Source of the DNA: a virus
Length of the DNA stretch: 39,208 nt
Virus record (IMG/VR): IMGVR_UViG_3300044613_002337
Coordinates: 1-39,208 of that record
Direction: 5' to 3' (one strand)
Numbering within the stretch: the first letter of the stretch is position 1; every line of letters begins with the position of its first letter. Shown piece after piece: positions 3,719 through 35,837 of this stretch. The notes beneath the pieces are model-generated. The model saw nothing but the letters and a program-made list of their open reading frames with translations, had not been told where the DNA came from and did no database searches. Made by a program: the position numbers and the translations under genes.

Positions 3719-3928
3719 TTATCGTTTTACTGAATCCGAATACTTTGCAAAGGTTTTTTCACCACCTCTACCTGTTTTGAATTTTGCAGCAGTTAAAACT
3801 TGCTCATCTGCTTTTTGCAAATCATTTGTAGAATATGGAGTGTTTGCAGCCTTTCCAGCTTCAAATGAAATTTTATCAACACCTAGTGCCGATTGTTGGG
3901 TTTTGTATAATTCTTCTAATGTTGCCAT
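3719..3928 (-). CDS. Hypothetical 69-aa protein
   Basis: Family not recognised. It begins MATLEELYKTQQSALG and ends with a basic stretch (AKFKTGRGGEKTFAKYSDSVKR), with no membrane segment and no cysteines. It starts 17 bases after a TATATTTATA late-type element and is followed after 6 bases by endonuclease I, so it heads a short transcription unit of late type. Because it has its own late-type promoter next to the tail genes it may be a minor virion or assembly protein, but nothing in the sequence proves this. Confidence 0.7.
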   Translation of the reverse strand: MATLEELYKTQQSALGVDKISFEAGKAANTPYSTNDLQKADEQVLTAAKFKTGRGGEKTFAKYSDSVKR

Positions 3929-7126: not shown

Positions 7127-10100
7127 TTATTCTACTTCCAAAATAGGTTCGGAAGAATCTCTACCAGTTTTATTTACTTTTAATGTATTCGGATTAGATA
7201 TAAATGTTTCAATCGGAGAACTACCATCTAGTGTAGTTGCCGCAGTATTTTTAGAACCCTTAAAGAAACTATTTTGTAATCCCCTAGTTAAATCGGAAGT
7301 AAATTTATTATGCGTTGGTAAATATCCATTTACATTTGTTACTTCTATTACATTGCCCCCAACTGTTGGACTATTTGGTGCACCGAATGGTTGAATATTT
7401 AATCGTGTTTCAGTATAAGTTTGAATATCCGAAACATATCCACCACGTGGGTCTCCCAATCCGTTTGCAGATGCGGTAATTGCAAATTTTTGTATAATTC
7501 TTTCTTTTTCTTCCGTAACTAATTGTACTTTAATTCGTTCTTTAACAACTCTATTATCTTTATTAAAATAAGTTCTAATCGCGGAACCGTTTTGTGCGTA
7601 TATACCAAACCCAATTGTTTCAAATTCAGTTTGTCCTATAACTTGATTGGAATTTATAATATCAATTTCAGTTACAATTGTAGGGGTTCCTAAATCTGCA
7701 TCTATAGTTATTTCTTTTTGATAATAATCCGAATTAAAAACAAAATTAGAATTCATATCAATAGTAGAATCCTGTTGATAATTTTCAGCCAATAAATTAT
7801 TTACCGATGCAGTTGAAATCAATGCTTCATACTGATTGTTTTCTACCGTTAAATTTTCTGATAAATTGGCATCTATTAATGTTTCTTTTTGAATATTTTC
7901 AAATGAAATAACACTAGTATCAGATAATTTTATTTCAGTTTCTTTCTGATAATCATCTGCAGTAGGTTTTTTGTGAACAACTTTACTTCTTTCTAAAAAG
8001 TGTGGTTCTATTAATAAACCAGTAGTTGCTTTAACCCTCGCAGGCAACATCTTTTTTAAATCTTCAAACATAGATTTCTCATATAGTTTGATTAGATTTA
8101 TGTAAGCATATATATCTCTATTATCAAATCTTTGGAAATAATAATTTCTTAAATTATCCAATGATTTATAATTTGGTTTATAATCATCCGATGGGTCACC
8201 AATGTAGTTATCAATATTTAACCCACCAAAAGTTTTAGCAATATCCATATTCAACTCTTTTGTAGGAGAGAAGAATAAACCAACTCTGTTAGAATCAGTT
8301 GGAGATTGGTCAAATGCTTTTTTAGTTGCTCTACTTTTTGAAGATAAATCTACACCAACACTTCCAGATATTTTTTGATTAGTTAAAGTATATTGGTCTT
8401 CGAATCTAACTTTATTAGTTGAAAATCTACTCGCTCCACCATCTGGATAATCCATTACAATTGTTCTATCGATTACTTCAAATTGAAATGGATATTCACT
8501 TATAGATGGGAAATTAAATGCCGATGCTGATAATAATGGTGTAGTGTTTACCGAATACAATGAAGCAGTAGTTCCATTTTCATAATCATTTCTAGTCAAT
8601 CCATTTTCAAAATAAATGTTAGTATCAACATTTATTAACGAAGATGTTTGTGCTAAATTTTTAGGATATTCAAAATCTAAACGGAAATATAAATCATCGG
8701 TTGAAGATGAAACACTATTTCCATTAATCATTTCAGGAAATGAAACGTGTTCATAAAATCTTTCAGTATCCAATACTTCAGACCATAAACGGAATTCATC
8801 CACACTACCAATATAGTTTCCACCCAATCTAATTGTAGAACCATTATTCCAATTTGTATAATTAGAAGATGATATTGATTCTTGGAATATAGTTCTTTCT
8901 TTATCGGCTTGTCTTACATCCAATTTTAATCCAGCAGAACCACTACTTACAGATATACCAAAAAATTTACCATTAAATATTGGTAATGTTGAGGTTTCTA
9001 TTGATAGTGACCCACTATAATTAAATTTAACTTTACCATAATCACTATTTGTAGAACCACTTAAATTTACATTCCAGCCACTACCACTTATTAAAGTATA
9101 TTGGGATGATTCTAATGGTTTTACAAATAATTCAATCGTATTTGGTTTAAGACTAGAAGTATTATTTGTTTGTTTCCACTCCATCTGTATTGATGAAGTT
9201 AATGCCATGTTAAGACCCGTAGTAATATTATCTATTACCAACTTACTTTTAGATGTATCGTTTATTTCAGGACCTCCAAATTCTAAAATTGAAAGATTAG
9301 ATGATGGAATACCATAACATGCCATCAATGCGTGAATACCTCTCCTAGTACCTTTATGTTTTAGTAGATATGGTAAGTTATTTACAATTCTTCTCCAAAC
9401 TTCGTTAGTTCTTTGTTTGGCCGGATTTGATTCTTTATCATTACCTTCTTTATCCTTGCCAAATACATAACTCCACAAATCGGCATCAGCTGCTAAATTT
9501 TTAGCATCCCAACTAAATGATTTTAATGTATCAAAAAGTAATTTGTCAGAAATGCCATCTTTTGCTTTATATCCTAAACCTCTACTTTTTTCAATTGATT
9601 TTGTATGGAAATAGATATTATCAAAATGATGTCCAATCATTGAGAAGAATAATAATAAACTTTCGTTTTCATCATTATTAACAATGAATTGAGGTATATT
9701 GTTTAATACATAATTTGAATTATTGGCATCATATATATTTGCAAGTTCTTCTATATTATTGTACCAATTTTTAACTTCGTTAGATGTACTCAATCTTCGA
9801 TTAGCACCATTGTAGGGCCAACTTAAAGAAGATGATGTGTATAAGAATTTTTCAAATCCATCAAATCCGTTTATTAATTGATTTTTCTTTAATTGTTGTC
9901 TTTCTGCTTCTTGTATAGATGGTAACGAACCACTATGTGCCTGTGATGCGTTAGCTGCTGATAGAGCAGTTTCATATAATTCAATTAGTTGTATTTTATA
10001 TACAAAGTTATCAATACGTTCATTTGCAGAACTGAAATGAACAAAATTCTCCCATAAATAAGTAGAACCAGACGAGTATTCGATATTTAATTCATCCGTA

Positions 10101-12103
10101 GTTATTAACGATGAACTTAAATATAGTGATACTAACTCATTAGAAGATGTGGAACCACTTAATATTATATTATCTAATGATTCGTAATTAGTAGATTGTC
10201 CTTTTACAAAGTCTACATCAATTGTAAAATTTGGTCCTTTTATTGGTGGACAACTTACATCATTATTTTCTGTTAATACAACCGTTTCAATTAAAGGATT
10301 ACTCATTAATTTTGTAATCCAGAATGTTGAATTATTCTGTATATTAGCAGGTAATGGTGAATATAGTTTTAATATAATTGAATTAACAACATCATTTGGA
10401 GCAACAAATGTATTACCTAAATTATCTGTAGACTTTTTAGATAATGTAAAATCATCAGTTTCCCAAGATGAAATTATAATTTGCTCATCGTTTCCAAAAT
10501 TAGCAAGGTGTGTTAGATACTTACTTTCTTTTGAAGGTTCATCGATTTTTAATTTTTCAGAAAAAGCATTAAATAAAGCGTTAGTAATTATATCTTCATT
10601 TAATGAAAGTGTTGGTAGTGTTAATTTTGTCAACACTTCGTATTCATTACCAATTAACTCCTCTGCTCCACTTCGATTATATGGTTTTAGTATTAATGTT
10701 ATATTAGTACTACCAACCCAGTTAGGATAATTTTCTCTTAATTTTTTAAGATTAATTTTTATAGAACCGTTTGGTGGTTGATTACTTAATAATCCAATTT
10801 TACTACCATCTTTTTGTTTTAACCAAACATCAACTGATGAAACTGCAAAAGAGGAATATGAAACTTCATAATCAATATTATAATCAGAAAACGATGGTAC
10901 ATCGATTGATTCTGCATATATGACTTCCGTAATAGCAGGGAAATCATTTATAGCAGTAAATGTTAAAATCACCTCAACTCTAGTTCCTGTTCCAAATTTT
11001 TTACTGGTTGGAACAAAAAATATTTTTTTAGAACCGTAAACCTCATTAAAATCTTTTTGAAAGAATATAGTTACTTCTTTGTCACTAGCTGGAATTTCTA
11101 AAACTTTATCAGCCGAAAGATATACTAAAACGGAATCTGCGAATTCAGTATTAAATGGAATTACTATACTTTTTTCTGTATCCGAATCTTTTACATTAAC
11201 ATTATATTGTATTTGATTTAATACTACTGTAGGTGATTCGGATTTAATTTCTCTTTCAGCTTCAATTACAACACCTAAACCTGAATTTAATAATGATGCT
11301 GGTACTCTAAATGCATAATTTTGTTTTGTTAACCTATCGTAGTTAACAGAATCTGAACCAAATTGTTGAGCAATTCCAGAATATATGTTTTTGATAAAAA
11401 TACCATCTGGTACATTACCTTTAATTTCAAAGTTAACAAACCCCCCATCTAAAATATTTTTGGGTATTGTAGAAATTCTGTTATCATATAATTGCAATTC
11501 TCCATCTACAACTATATTATCTTCAAATACAATTTGATATTTTAAACTTAAAGTAGTTAATTCCTTTATATTAGAATTAAACAAAACTTCATAACCAACC
11601 ATTGGATTATCAACGGTTACCACGTCTGCAGGTGGTGTTGGAAGTGTTTGAGTTCGTTGTAATACCTCTGTTTTAAATCTTAAAGTTATTGTTCCGAAAT
11701 TGAAGTTTTGGGTTTGTTGTTCTTCCCATACATCATCTATTAATGAATATTCTGTAACACCGATTCCCTCAACTATTTCATTCGCAAATTGTAGTTGTTT
11801 AGTATTAATTATAAATTTTGATAATACTTTTCCATTATCTAAATTTGCAGTATAAGTTTTAGGACCATTAAATTGTAAAGATGAATTATATACAATATCA
11901 ACGGATTTACCATATCCAGCAGATACACCTTCTTCAAAAAATTCTAAATCATTAGTTTCACTTACTAAATAAATTTTTAACGAAGATGGTGGGTTAGTTG
12001 GTCTATACGTGGGGGCATTGTAAGGACCAGTTTGACCTGTATTCCTAGTACTTCCGTTATTATTAAAATCCGGATAAGCGTAAAGGCTTTCTTGTTCTGC
12101 CAT
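7127..12103 (-). CDS. Very large tail/baseplate structural protein (1658 aa) with ConA/LamG-like domain
   Basis: This is the largest gene in the window. Residues 1-700 are mostly beta-rich segments. Around residue 905 is NNLPYLLKHKGTRRGIHAL followed by YGIPSSNLSILEFGGPE, a conserved block of very large tail proteins next to baseplate J genes that recalls the P2 gpI type. Residues of about 1030-1120 look like a concanavalin/LamG jelly roll (GSTIRLGGNYIGSVDEFRLW). Near 1345 is a helical block (NLRNYYFQRFDNRDIYAYI). Residues of about 1385-1472 form five imperfect ~22-aa repeats with a YQKE..ID..L pattern. By order it occupies the place of T4 gp7, the large wedge protein, but sequence alone does not prove equivalence. 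The start MAEQESLYAYPDFNNNG follows a TATTTATA element by 17 bases. Confidence 0.85.
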   Translation of the reverse strand: MAEQESLYAYPDFNNNGSTRNTGQTGPYNAPTYRPTNPPSSLKIYLVSETNDLEFFEEGVSAGYGKSVDIVYNSSLQFNGPKTYTANLDNGKVLSKFIINTKQLQFANEIVEGIGVTEYSLIDDVWEEQQTQNFNFGTITLRFKTEVLQRTQTLPTPPADVVTVDNPMVGYEVLFNSNIKELTTLSLKYQIVFEDNIVVDGELQLYDNRISTIPKNILDGGFVNFEIKGNVPDGIFIKNIYSGIAQQFGSDSVNYDRLTKQNYAFRVPASLLNSGLGVVIEAEREIKSESPTVVLNQIQYNVNVKDSDTEKSIVIPFNTEFADSVLVYLSADKVLEIPASDKEVTIFFQKDFNEVYGSKKIFFVPTSKKFGTGTRVEVILTFTAINDFPAITEVIYAESIDVPSFSDYNIDYEVSYSSFAVSSVDVWLKQKDGSKIGLLSNQPPNGSIKINLKKLRENYPNWVGSTNITLILKPYNRSGAEELIGNEYEVLTKLTLPTLSLNEDIITNALFNAFSEKLKIDEPSKESKYLTHLANFGNDEQIIISSWETDDFTLSKKSTDNLGNTFVAPNDVVNSIILKLYSPLPANIQNNSTFWITKLMSNPLIETVVLTENNDVSCPPIKGPNFTIDVDFVKGQSTNYESLDNIILSGSTSSNELVSLYLSSSLITTDELNIEYSSGSTYLWENFVHFSSANERIDNFVYKIQLIELYETALSAANASQAHSGSLPSIQEAERQQLKKNQLINGFDGFEKFLYTSSSLSWPYNGANRRLSTSNEVKNWYNNIEELANIYDANNSNYVLNNIPQFIVNNDENESLLLFFSMIGHHFDNIYFHTKSIEKSRGLGYKAKDGISDKLLFDTLKSFSWDAKNLAADADLWSYVFGKDKEGNDKESNPAKQRTNEVWRRIVNNLPYLLKHKGTRRGIHALMACYGIPSSNLSILEFGGPEINDTSKSKLVIDNITTGLNMALTSSIQMEWKQTNNTSSLKPNTIELFVKPLESSQYTLISGSGWNVNLSGSTNSDYGKVKFNYSGSLSIETSTLPIFNGKFFGISVSSGSAGLKLDVRQADKERTIFQESISSSNYTNWNNGSTIRLGGNYIGSVDEFRLWSEVLDTERFYEHVSFPEMINGNSVSSSTDDLYFRLDFEYPKNLAQTSSLINVDTNIYFENGLTRNDYENGTTASLYSVNTTPLLSASAFNFPSISEYPFQFEVIDRTIVMDYPDGGASRFSTNKVRFEDQYTLTNQKISGSVGVDLSSKSRATKKAFDQSPTDSNRVGLFFSPTKELNMDIAKTFGGLNIDNYIGDPSDDYKPNYKSLDNLRNYYFQRFDNRDIYAYINLIKLYEKSMFEDLKKMLPARVKATTGLLIEPHFLERSKVVHKKPTADDYQKETEIKLSDTSVISFENIQKETLIDANLSENLTVENNQYEALISTASVNNLLAENYQQDSTIDMNSNFVFNSDYYQKEITIDADLGTPTIVTEIDIINSNQVIGQTEFETIGFGIYAQNGSAIRTYFNKDNRVVKERIKVQLVTEEKERIIQKFAITASANGLGDPRGGYVSDIQTYTETRLNIQPFGAPNSPTVGGNVIEVTNVNGYLPTHNKFTSDLTRGLQNSFFKGSKNTAATTLDGSSPIETFISNPNTLKVNKTGRDSSEPILEVE
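7686..7951 (-). repeat. Five imperfect ~22-residue repeats inside the 1658-aa protein
   Basis: Encoded units begin YQKETEIK, IQKETLID, QYEALIST, YQQDSTID and YQKEITID, each followed by 12-17 variable residues rich in Ser/Asn. They lie between the helical block and the final beta region, so they may be a spacer or surface repeat whose copy number can vary. Confidence 0.65.
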
Positions 12104-32857: not shown

Positions 32858-33454
32858 TTATAATAATTTACTTTTAGCAGAAGAAAAATCGGATTCATAT
32901 AAAAATATAGTTAAACTAAATCTAATACCCTCTTCTAATAGTTTTACTTCATGTATATCCGAACTTAAAAATAAAGAATATGACCCTTGTTCTTTGGATT
33001 GAGGAACATCCTTAACATATAAATATCCACCAACATAATCTTTAGGGTCTGATAATTGGATTACTAAAGTTTTATATGTACAACCAAATTCATCTATGCT
33101 TCTAAAATCACGATGAGGCGCAAAAAAATCACCTTCAATATATTTTGTTATTTTAACCTGATTATTTAAAATAGATTTTATACCGATTTTTGATAATCTA
33201 CTTAAAATAAAATTTATTAATTCTTTGTTAAACAAATCTAAAAATTTTAATTTTGCATTTTTTGGTTTGATGGTAATTATTCTACCGTTTTCCGTTTGTA
33301 ATTGTACAGTAGTTGCACCATTTATTACGGTAGTAGTATCTTTACGGTAATTGCCATTGGTTGTTCGATATACTACACCATCTATTGAATTAAAATCATC
33401 CCAAAAAGATTTTATATATTCACAATCTTCTTTTGAAAATAAAACATTATCCAT
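32858..33454 (-). CDS. 2OG-Fe(II) oxygenase (second of two)
   Basis: 198 aa. The triad is H114-x-D116 (FAPHRDFRS) and H168 (SDIHEVKLL), and R178 (IRFSLTIFLY) is the 2OG anchor; DYVGGYLYVKD gives the GGxL strand. It is only distantly related to the 160-aa oxygenase, with a longer, Thr-rich N-terminal half (YRKDTTTVINGATTVQL), so a different substrate is expected. It starts 16 bases after the 45-aa gene and begins the enzymatic run of the island. Confidence 0.88.
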   Translation of the reverse strand: MDNVLFSKEDCEYIKSFWDDFNSIDGVVYRTTNGNYRKDTTTVINGATTVQLQTENGRIITIKPKNAKLKFLDLFNKELINFILSRLSKIGIKSILNNQVKITKYIEGDFFAPHRDFRSIDEFGCTYKTLVIQLSDPKDYVGGYLYVKDVPQSKEQGSYSLFLSSDIHEVKLLEEGIRFSLTIFLYESDFSSAKSKLL

Positions 33455-33629: not shown

Positions 33630-35837
33630 TTATTGAAAAACTGCTTGTCTTTTAAGAGTATTATTTAGTAATTCATTATCCCCTAAACCAGAAACCACAA
33701 AATCCTCCACTATAAAGTTATGCTCACTTTCAAATAAAAGATTACCATCTATTTCTAAATTATAAAAATTATCCACATATTGAATACCTAATTCAACACC
33801 TGGTGCTTCAAAAATTGGTTTCCATTCTCCATTATCATAGAATGGATGTAATCTATCGGAAATCATTCCTTTATATTTTACAACCTCAACAACATCATTT
33901 GTAGGGTGTATTAATTTATCAGTTACAACACCTCTTACATATTTACCGTCTTTGTAACTTAAAATACAATCTCCTATTTCTATATCAATAATATTTTTAA
34001 AACTACCATCTTCCATTTCAACTTTGGTTTCAGCAGTGAAACACGATGTTGTTGTTGTAACTTTATTATGAACTAAAATGTTTTCTGCAAAATAAGTATG
34101 ATTATCTTTAACATCAATTAAGTGATATACTTTGAATTCACCTTTTAAAGATTCAATTGATTTAACTTTTACAAGAATACCATCTTTATTAAATAACAAA
34201 TTACCTACTTTAATATCTTGTGCGTGAGACCATCCGTGTTCCTCAACATAAAATTTATGTAAAGGTGTACTTTTAACTTCATCACCATTTTCAGTTACAA
34301 TATAAATAAGTTCATTTTGAGTAGAAACACGAATACTTGTAGCCGTACCTGCTCCATATTTTCCTTGTTCATTATTGTAAGTAAGTAAAACATCAGTAGT
34401 AGTTAAATCTTCAATGTTTTTATATGTACCATCATTTAACAATATACGAGTTCCTGCTGGGAAACAGTTGTGGGTTACAATCTTAATATTGATATCATTA
34501 TCATATAATGCAAATGTATCAGTTTCTTCCAAATCTAAAATGTAAGTTGAAAGTCCTTCTTCGTTTAAAACTTCAAAATCATTATCAGTAATATCAATAA
34601 GATTACCATCTAATTTGAATACCTTATGTTCTCCTGGTATAATTCCTGCAACTTCTTCGTATCTAATTAAATCAGAAACACTATCATAAATAAGAATATG
34701 TTGACCACCATTTGCTCTAAACGAACCACTACCATAGTATAAATGAGATACTAGATTATTTGGAAGTGATTGTTCTATTTTATTTATTAAAACCGAAGAT
34801 GTAACATAAGAACCACTTGGTAAAGTTTGTCCAGGATAACTCCAACTTGTAAATACCATAACACTATCGGTATCAGGTGTTCCTTCTATACAAAAAGATT
34901 TATAAGAACCGCCAATTTCAACATCAGATATTTGTACAGGATTTCCATCCGAATCACTAATTAATTCTTCTTCAAAAATACCACCCCATGAATTATCAGT
35001 AATAAATTTAGGAAAGTTTGTTGTAAATTCATAATAATGTTTAGATGAAAGGTTAGATTCATCAATAAAAGATAAAGATTCTGGTTTTTCAAAAACTGCA
35101 GTAGGTTCAATTGTTACCAAATTTATTACATCTAATTCAGAACCATATATTATGTTAAATGTACGAATTGATTTATGTCTAATGTCATCGGTATCTTCAT
35201 AATTCATTAAAATATTAGATTCAATATATGATTGAGATATAAATGAATCAAACGAATTTTCTAAACTTACACCATCTTGTGTTTGTATTTTATAAAAAGA
35301 TAATGGATATCTAGCATAAGTTTCATCTTTTATAACAATATCCGGTATATTTTCGGAATTAACAACTCTTTGTAATCCATCATAAAAAAATTCCGATGAT
35401 GAAATATACATAGAAGGTATTGAACCAGTTTCGGATGCATCTATAAATAATTTATGTAATTCAAATGATGATTTACAATATTCACTATCAAATACAGCAG
35501 ATTCATCATACGCTAATCTTAATATAAATTTATTATCAGAATCTTCAACATTTGTTGGATAAACAGTTGATATATCTTCTTCGTATATAACAAATGAGGT
35601 AATGTTAGGTTGTGATTGAATACTTTGAGATAAAAAAGTTAAAAACCCACTTTGGAATGGTTTGTGAATTACCTCCAATGAATCGATATTATTATCAGAT
35701 AATATTGAAAAGAATTCAGTAAAATCAAGTTGAGATACTGAACTACTCCAGAATCCAGTATCGGTATTTAATTCCAATAATCTCAAATTACCAGTTGAGT
35801 CTTTTACAAAATCTGCGGAAAATAGTGTTCCTTTCAT
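33630..35837 (-). CDS. ATP-grasp-like protein with two tandem C-terminal Hint (intein-like) domains
   Basis: 735 aa. The N-terminus has SADFVKDSTGNLRLLELNTD (residues 7-26), like the last ATP/metal-binding strand of ATP-grasp enzymes, and FILRLAYDESA (about 105-115) like an earlier one, so the order looks swapped against the classic fold. Residues of about 150-457 are beta-rich. A Hint domain begins at C458 (CFPAGTRILL), has STPLHKF as block B and ends NILVHN at 591 before K592, so no nucleophile follows for splicing. A second Hint begins at C599 (CFTAETKVEM), has SDRLHPF, and ends FVVSG instead of HN. Self-cleavage rather than splicing is expected. A late-type element lies 27 bases before the start. 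It may be virion-associated. Confidence 0.82.
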   Translation of the reverse strand: MKGTLFSADFVKDSTGNLRLLELNTDTGFWSSSVSQLDFTEFFSILSDNNIDSLEVIHKPFQSGFLTFLSQSIQSQPNITSFVIYEEDISTVYPTNVEDSDNKFILRLAYDESAVFDSEYCKSSFELHKLFIDASETGSIPSMYISSSEFFYDGLQRVVNSENIPDIVIKDETYARYPLSFYKIQTQDGVSLENSFDSFISQSYIESNILMNYEDTDDIRHKSIRTFNIIYGSELDVINLVTIEPTAVFEKPESLSFIDESNLSSKHYYEFTTNFPKFITDNSWGGIFEEELISDSDGNPVQISDVEIGGSYKSFCIEGTPDTDSVMVFTSWSYPGQTLPSGSYVTSSVLINKIEQSLPNNLVSHLYYGSGSFRANGGQHILIYDSVSDLIRYEEVAGIIPGEHKVFKLDGNLIDITDNDFEVLNEEGLSTYILDLEETDTFALYDNDINIKIVTHNCFPAGTRILLNDGTYKNIEDLTTTDVLLTYNNEQGKYGAGTATSIRVSTQNELIYIVTENGDEVKSTPLHKFYVEEHGWSHAQDIKVGNLLFNKDGILVKVKSIESLKGEFKVYHLIDVKDNHTYFAENILVHNKVTTTTSCFTAETKVEMEDGSFKNIIDIEIGDCILSYKDGKYVRGVVTDKLIHPTNDVVEVVKYKGMISDRLHPFYDNGEWKPIFEAPGVELGIQYVDNFYNLEIDGNLLFESEHNFIVEDFVVSGLGDNELLNNTLKRQAVFQ

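Follow-up and report, generated by a model that had tools for sequence, protein, structure and literature searches.

The 735-residue protein studied here, encoded in the window (the whole 39,208 nt stretch of DNA that was analysed, IMG/VR record IMGVR_UViG_3300044613_002337), is an enzyme-like protein from uncultivated large phages that carries three Hint domains in a row. Downstream of an N-terminal ATP-grasp-like domain (N-domain), it harbours a degenerate Hint domain (Hint0), a complete one (Hint1) and a third one that has lost its terminal HN motif (Hint2). Its make-up suggests an enzyme that trims or attaches itself, of a kind not previously described. The first-pass annotation of this DNA had proposed two tandem Hint domains on an ATP-grasp-like protein; both parts of that description were confirmed, the Hints in Pfam, NCBIfam and PDB searches and the ATP-grasp likeness by fold comparison, but the count was too low, since Hint0 had been missed. 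The 735-codon ORF is intact, and its start codon is supported by the motif MKGT[LFV]FS, found at residue 1 in all relatives. A 100% identical protein is present in three further uncultivated-virus contigs, one of them 145 kb long. The PHROG match of the ORF is an unnamed family and covers that family's own C-terminal part. The full-length AlphaFold model has a pLDDT of 83, with a pTM of 0.57 that leaves the relative placement of the domains uncertain. Coordinates of all features are given in Table 1.

Table 1. Positions in the window of the protein, its domains and candidate functional residues, and the downstream neighbouring gene.
Feature	Position	Strand	Remarks
Whole ORF, 735 aa	33630..35837	-	ATP-grasp domain, Hint0, Hint1, linker, Hint2, tail
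N-domain, aa 1-274	35016..35837	-	Circularly permuted ATP-grasp, glutathionylspermidine-synthetase type; AlphaFold, Foldseek, hhalign
Metal-binding hairpin D9...E22-x-N24	35766..35813	-	Invariant in 63/63; equivalent to Gss D318/E330/N332
K122, candidate ATP lysine	35472..35474	-	62/63; Gss K498 equivalent; motif matched by eye
K170, candidate ATP lysine	35328..35330	-	63/63; Gss K533 equivalent; aligned near YgiC VVKP
Hint0, aa 286-457	34467..34982	-	hhalign, Hint HMM, AlphaFold strand order, residue conservation, dN/dS
N457-C458 junction	34466..34467	-	Single peptide bond joining the end of Hint0 to the start of Hint1, addressed by both (predicted)
Hint1, aa 458-591	34065..34466	-	Complete: C458, T524, H527, H590, N591; A-type-BIL-like
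Linker KVTTTTS, aa 592-598	34044..34064	-	Predicted released heptapeptide, 737 Da
Hint2, aa 599-719	33681..34043	-	C599, H664, H706 kept; SG replaces HN; B-type-BIL/hog-like
C-terminal tail (L)GDNELLN..KRQ	33633..33680	-	Conserved in alignment of eight SG-type modules
2OG-Fe(II) oxygenase, downstream neighbour	32858..33454	-	PF13640, 5.7e-7

IMG/VR scans with the N-domain yielded, after merging, 63 distinct complete relatives, all from uncultivated phages. No homologue of the N-domain was found in GTDB genomes, nor by tblastn in isolate phages. The isolates nearest to the window phage by baseplate protein, at about 40% identity, infect Microcystis and Flavobacterium. Matches to PF07591 and intein_Nterm are confined to this ORF in each record tested, with the exception of one further weak match in record G011. 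The relatives carry 0 (three proteins), 1 (25, including L220), 2 (29) or 3 (six) Hint modules starting with Cys, related sequences being counted here and below as separate entries. In these modules, Cys1 is present in 72/72, the block-B Thr in 71/72, the block-B His in 72/72 and the terminal HN in 71/71 complete ones. HN is followed by Lys or Arg in 79 of 91 complete modules (by Lys in 47/50 terminal modules, by Lys or Arg in 29/41 internal ones, with Arg the commonest internally) and never by Cys, Ser or Thr (0/91), so ordinary ligation is not expected.

Pfam models matching the ORF are PT-HINT (9e-18), Intein_splicing (1e-9) and Vint (2e-9) (two stretches), and the NCBIfam model intein_Nterm matches the Hint region at 2e-10. 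A sequence search of the PDB retrieved the BIL domain 2lwy over residues 458-591 (4e-9) and Tetrahymena BIL2 over residues 598-691, and a fold search with the full model retrieved BIL2 (6y75, 2e-10) and 2lwy (4e-9). The Hint fold, which had been proposed from the letters only, is thus significant in Pfam, NCBIfam, PDB and AlphaFold/Foldseek comparisons. Residues C458, H590-N591, K592 and C599, and the FVVSG stretch that replaces HN, all lie where the first reading had placed them, and Hint2 does start seven residues past the end of Hint1. Hint1 shows both sequence hallmarks of A-type BILs, namely Cys1, block-B Thr/His and a terminal His-Asn in a Hint fold, and, with Lys592, no nucleophile behind HN. 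Its complete catalytic set and the residues following HN in the relatives agree with the proposal that it is BIL-like and would cleave rather than splice. A canonical intein is ruled out by the C-terminal position and the Lys at +1. Compared with the A-type BIL of C. thermocellum (2lwy), the modules described here differ in forming a tandem array, in being located C-terminally on a phage ATP-grasp protein and in the basic residue after HN.

Hint2 has the N-terminal Hint motifs and lacks the HN motif, as do B-type BILs. With its Cys1 and block-B His, its missing HN and its C-terminal location, it also resembles the Hog-Hint domain of Hedgehog (1at0, 6tyy), from which it differs in being preceded by two other Hints; a sterol-recognition region was not identified in it. 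HN has given way to SG in eight aligned modules, which come from an eight-member subgroup that includes the window protein and is characterized by the ending SGLGDN and a tail of the form GLGDN..LN...RQ. Most of the other relatives have an intact last Hint with the ending ...VHNK-stop; decay at this place thus marks one subgroup. In another family member (L044, 5001-7160), the last Hint ends mid-domain at ...GKNIILMNI, possibly because of a frameshift or of natural decay.

The region between the N-domain and C458 was identified as a Hint domain by several comparisons. A profile of Hint0 built from 51 relatives aligned over its full length, terminal HN included, with a profile of 71 Hint modules (hhalign probability 97.3%, E 1.7e-11, a value that, like the other single profile comparisons reported here, refers to one comparison and not to a database search), whereas the N-domain gave E 0.67 against the same Hint profile. 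An HMM of the Cys-starting modules matches Hint0 in 25/63 relatives (best 2e-7). In the AlphaFold model, the strand order is common to Hint0, Hint1 and Hint2, with a long central strand at 344-357, 501-515 and 632-644, respectively. The place of Cys1 is occupied in Hint0 by Gly286 (Gly in 60/63 relatives, Ala in 3/63), neither the Thr nor the His of block B is kept, and a conserved insertion carries P340/S343/S348. The C-terminal residues are retained: D440 in 62/63, H456 in 60/63 and N457 in all 63 relatives, also where long spacers follow and where no Hint lies downstream. In the latter proteins (L077, 5001-6707; L078; L080), Hint0 is the sole Hint and the chain ends 5-7 residues after HN. 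Loss of Cys1 and block B with retention of D440, H456 and N457 is the pattern expected of an Asn-cyclising Hint acting at its C-terminal end only; judging from these residues, Hint0 has lost its N-terminal chemistry and is predicted to be able to cut only behind itself.

Selection on Hint0 can be estimated from close relatives. In the L049/L053 pair, dN/dS is 0.010 for the N-domain, 0.020 for Hint0 and 0.056 for Hint1; Hint0 is therefore constrained and no relic. The L077/L078 pair is an exception, with a Hint0 dN/dS of about 1 based on few substitutions, indicating little constraint. Across the array, competence is predicted to be graded: Hint1 has the full catalytic set, Hint0 could cut only behind itself and Hint2 only before itself. 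The unequal decay noted in the first-pass annotation for a pair of Hints thus holds for Hint2, which has lost only its C-terminal half, but it concerns three domains and runs in both directions. Staged cleavage would be the simplest reading of such unequally decayed Hints.

A Foldseek search of the PDB with the model of the N-domain (pLDDT 88) gave five matches below 1e-3, namely YjfC, YgiC (twice), homoglutathione synthetase and GspS, all from the glutathionylspermidine-synthetase/glutathione-synthetase ATP-grasp superfamily, in line with the ATP-grasp-like N-terminus noticed earlier. E-values range from 2.1e-6 to 6e-5 with a probability of 1.00, and TM scores are only 0.40-0.46. By hhalign, the N-domain matches 13 GSP_synth sequences with E 2.4e-4 at residues 9-27, the alignment being collinear up to residue 262. 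The aligned metal hairpins read DFVKDSTGNLRLLELNTDT in the N-domain and DLAWDGTGEPKLLENNADT in YgiC. The reference residues in Gss are D318, E330, N332, K533 and K498, with the roles given in Table 1; their identities were checked in the K-12 gene. The N-domain shares with GspS, YgiC, YjfC and eukaryotic glutathione synthetase the D...E-x-N-x-D-T metal motif, the two ATP lysines, the fold and the permuted order of motifs. A circular permutation of ATP-grasp motif order is common to GspS and eukaryotic glutathione synthetase; the motif order described as reversed in the first reading was correctly seen and is no oddity.

The N-domain differs from this superfamily in several respects besides its fusion to Hints. 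It lacks a stretch of about 98 residues found at the N-terminus of YgiC, and no clear counterpart of Gss R316 or R598 was found: an invariant Ser7 occupies the place of R316, and the C-terminal region of R598 is unaligned. Since these elements are missing, any ligase activity may be changed or lost. Searched alone, the N-domain reached no Pfam family above threshold (PF03738, best member E 0.053); its profile gave no match in a sequence search of the PDB, and a fold search of BFVD gave none below 1e-3. We infer that it is a truncated, circularly permuted, ligase-like ATP-grasp domain with a putative enzymatic activity.

Hint modules and N-domains do not share the same history. The Hint2 modules of the window protein and of its relative L030 are 86% identical whereas their N-terminal parts are 41% identical, which argues for separate histories of the Hint modules and rules out that Hint1 and Hint2 arose when a single Hint was recently duplicated. 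The second module of L040 and the first module of L074 are likewise 84% identical, for 39% in the N-terminal parts. A precise exchange is seen between L056 and L058, which are 98.6% identical at the nucleotide level through codon 469 (N-domain and Hint0) and about 94% identical in both flanks, with Hint cassettes only 59% identical; the break falls at the HN-C junction and the far end in the conserved terminal motif. Exchange at HN-C and a module number varying from 0 to 3 fit parts that are absent from the mature protein, although this point would also be a favoured one if conserved motifs simply recombine with each other. The best explanation is that the Hints behind Hint0 are cassettes that can be removed and that differ between phages in number and sequence.

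We lean towards a BIL-like self-processing precursor, probably cytoplasmic, that would release an ATP-grasp-Hint0 product ending at Asn457. A-type BILs end in HN without a nucleophile behind it and mainly undergo cleavage; B-type BILs lack HN and are cut at their N-terminus (PMC7765530; PMC7664689). The domains, catalytic residues, conservation and cassette exchange are observed; we infer each cleavage and, by analogy with these two types, expect three cuts, between residues 457 and 458, 591 and 592, and 598 and 599. The N457-C458 bond could be activated by an N-S acyl shift on C458 of Hint1 and/or cut through cyclisation of Asn457 of Hint0; as HN and Cys are adjacent, the Asn457 side chain might even resolve the Hint1 thioester directly. 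Asn591 of Hint1 would cut before K592, and Cys599 of Hint2 behind S598. Hint1, the heptapeptide and Hint2 with its tail would thereby be removed, leaving a mature ATP-grasp-Hint0 protein (residues 1-457, 51.6 kDa) with Asn457 or a succinimide at its C-terminus. Calculated masses are 83,086 Da for the whole chain, 51,630 Da for residues 1-457 (18 Da less with the succinimide), 15,131 Da for residues 458-591 and 15,642 Da for residues 599-735. The strong purifying selection on N-domain, Hint0 and Hint1 in the L049/L053 pair would support self-processing. On the other hand, if the Hints merely remove themselves, their retention has no explanation.

The main alternative, which we consider unlikely, is conjugation: a thioester at N457-C458 or S598-C599 would be resolved by an amine, attaching the N-terminal part elsewhere in a hedgehog- or BUBL-like manner. 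The amine might, with the same low probability, belong to a lysine side chain, either in a target or directly behind HN, or to a polyamine held by the ATP-grasp domain. Among solved Hints, BIL2 of Tetrahymena BUBL1 (6y75, 6tmm) is the nearest in fold; it is reported to form isopeptide bonds with the epsilon-amine of lysine independently of ATP (PMC8616854). Both systems have several Hints per polyprotein and could use lysine chemistry, and the superfamily of the N-domain couples carboxylates to spermidine. The basic residues after HN would suit such a reaction, but Arg, prevalent internally, is a poor nucleophile, and a terminal Lys before the stop codon can reflect shared ancestry. In contrast to BUBL1, where ubiquitin-like domains accompany the Hints, the passenger here is an ATP-grasp domain, flanking ubiquitin-like domains are absent, only Hints and short linkers occur besides the N-domain, and no acceptor is known. 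In its fullest form, a doubtful proposal in our opinion, the protein would be a self-contained phage conjugation system in which an ATP-grasp amidoligase is combined with a Hint array activating Asn457 (as thioester or succinimide) for amine transfer. It is equally tentative that the acceptor would be a host protein or a polyamine and that the exchangeable cassettes would set where and when transfer occurs.

Less probable still, the Hints could be catalytically silent, serving as structural or regulatory C-terminal domains that recombine like other phage tail-end cassettes. Cassette exchange agrees with this, as do the HN-K-stop endings, where a cut would free one lysine and terminal C-cleavage seems pointless; the near-perfect retention of Cys1, Thr/His and HN in divergent modules, together with N457, is nevertheless hard to explain without chemistry.

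Inteins of class 2, such as KlbA, combine Ala1 with Cys+1 (PMC7765530), and Hint0 resembles them in lacking the N-terminal nucleophile, keeping the terminal Asn and being followed by Cys in the window. By such a route, which we regard as improbable, C458 would attack the bond before Gly286, Asn457 would cyclise and Hint0 would be excised, joining the ATP-grasp domain to Hint1, which would then cleave. However, residue 1 is Gly and only rarely Ala, and Cys directly follows HN in only 12/63 relatives, most others having AP/SP or a longer spacer, yet N457 is found in all; Hint0 therefore does not qualify as a class 2 intein. A class 3 intein (WCT, block-F Cys) was rejected as well, since the commonest residues of Hint0 show no Trp in block B and no Cys in block F. 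Finally, although the best Pfam model is PT-HINT, toxin-like release of a C-terminal effector is highly improbable, as nothing comes after the Hints of the 63 relatives except a further Hint, a single Lys or a short tail, and no effector or toxin domain was found behind them.

In the literature searched, tandem graded Hints arranged around a shared peptide bond, carried by a permuted ATP-grasp domain and swapped at HN-C among near-identical phages, were not encountered; reviews on Hint and BIL domains and one jumbo-phage survey do not contain this fusion, ATP-grasp peptide ligases being mentioned in the survey. The relatives amount to natural separation-of-function variants of Hint domains. 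With them, it can be tested directly whether phage Hints capture lysine or polyamines, and they are possible compact cleavage or ligation tools.

Same-strand neighbours of the gene include 2OG-Fe(II) oxygenases (49/57 loci), SET-domain proteins (22/57), a radical SAM protein and a carbamoyltransferase. The SET (lysine methyltransferase-like) genes lie, for example, at +1 in L051, where the assignment was confirmed (4.6e-6), and at +1 in L035. All of these are modification enzymes, but genes of this type are common in such phages, so that the neighbours point only weakly to a function in modifying proteins. Other intein-related sequences were observed as well. In L117-L136, many ORFs start with a C-terminal intein half of 30-40 residues (ITVEDNHNFYANGILVHNC) followed by a ribonucleotide-reductase-like C-terminus; these look like known phage split inteins. 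In L125 (ORF ~3849-3920), an unrelated phage protein of 380 aa, whose N-terminal part differs, also has a C-terminal Hint-like stretch, ending with GGFLMHNVHGK. Elsewhere in the window, a 1658-aa ORF (7127-12103, minus strand) with no PHROG match is located to the left of baseplate-wedge genes.
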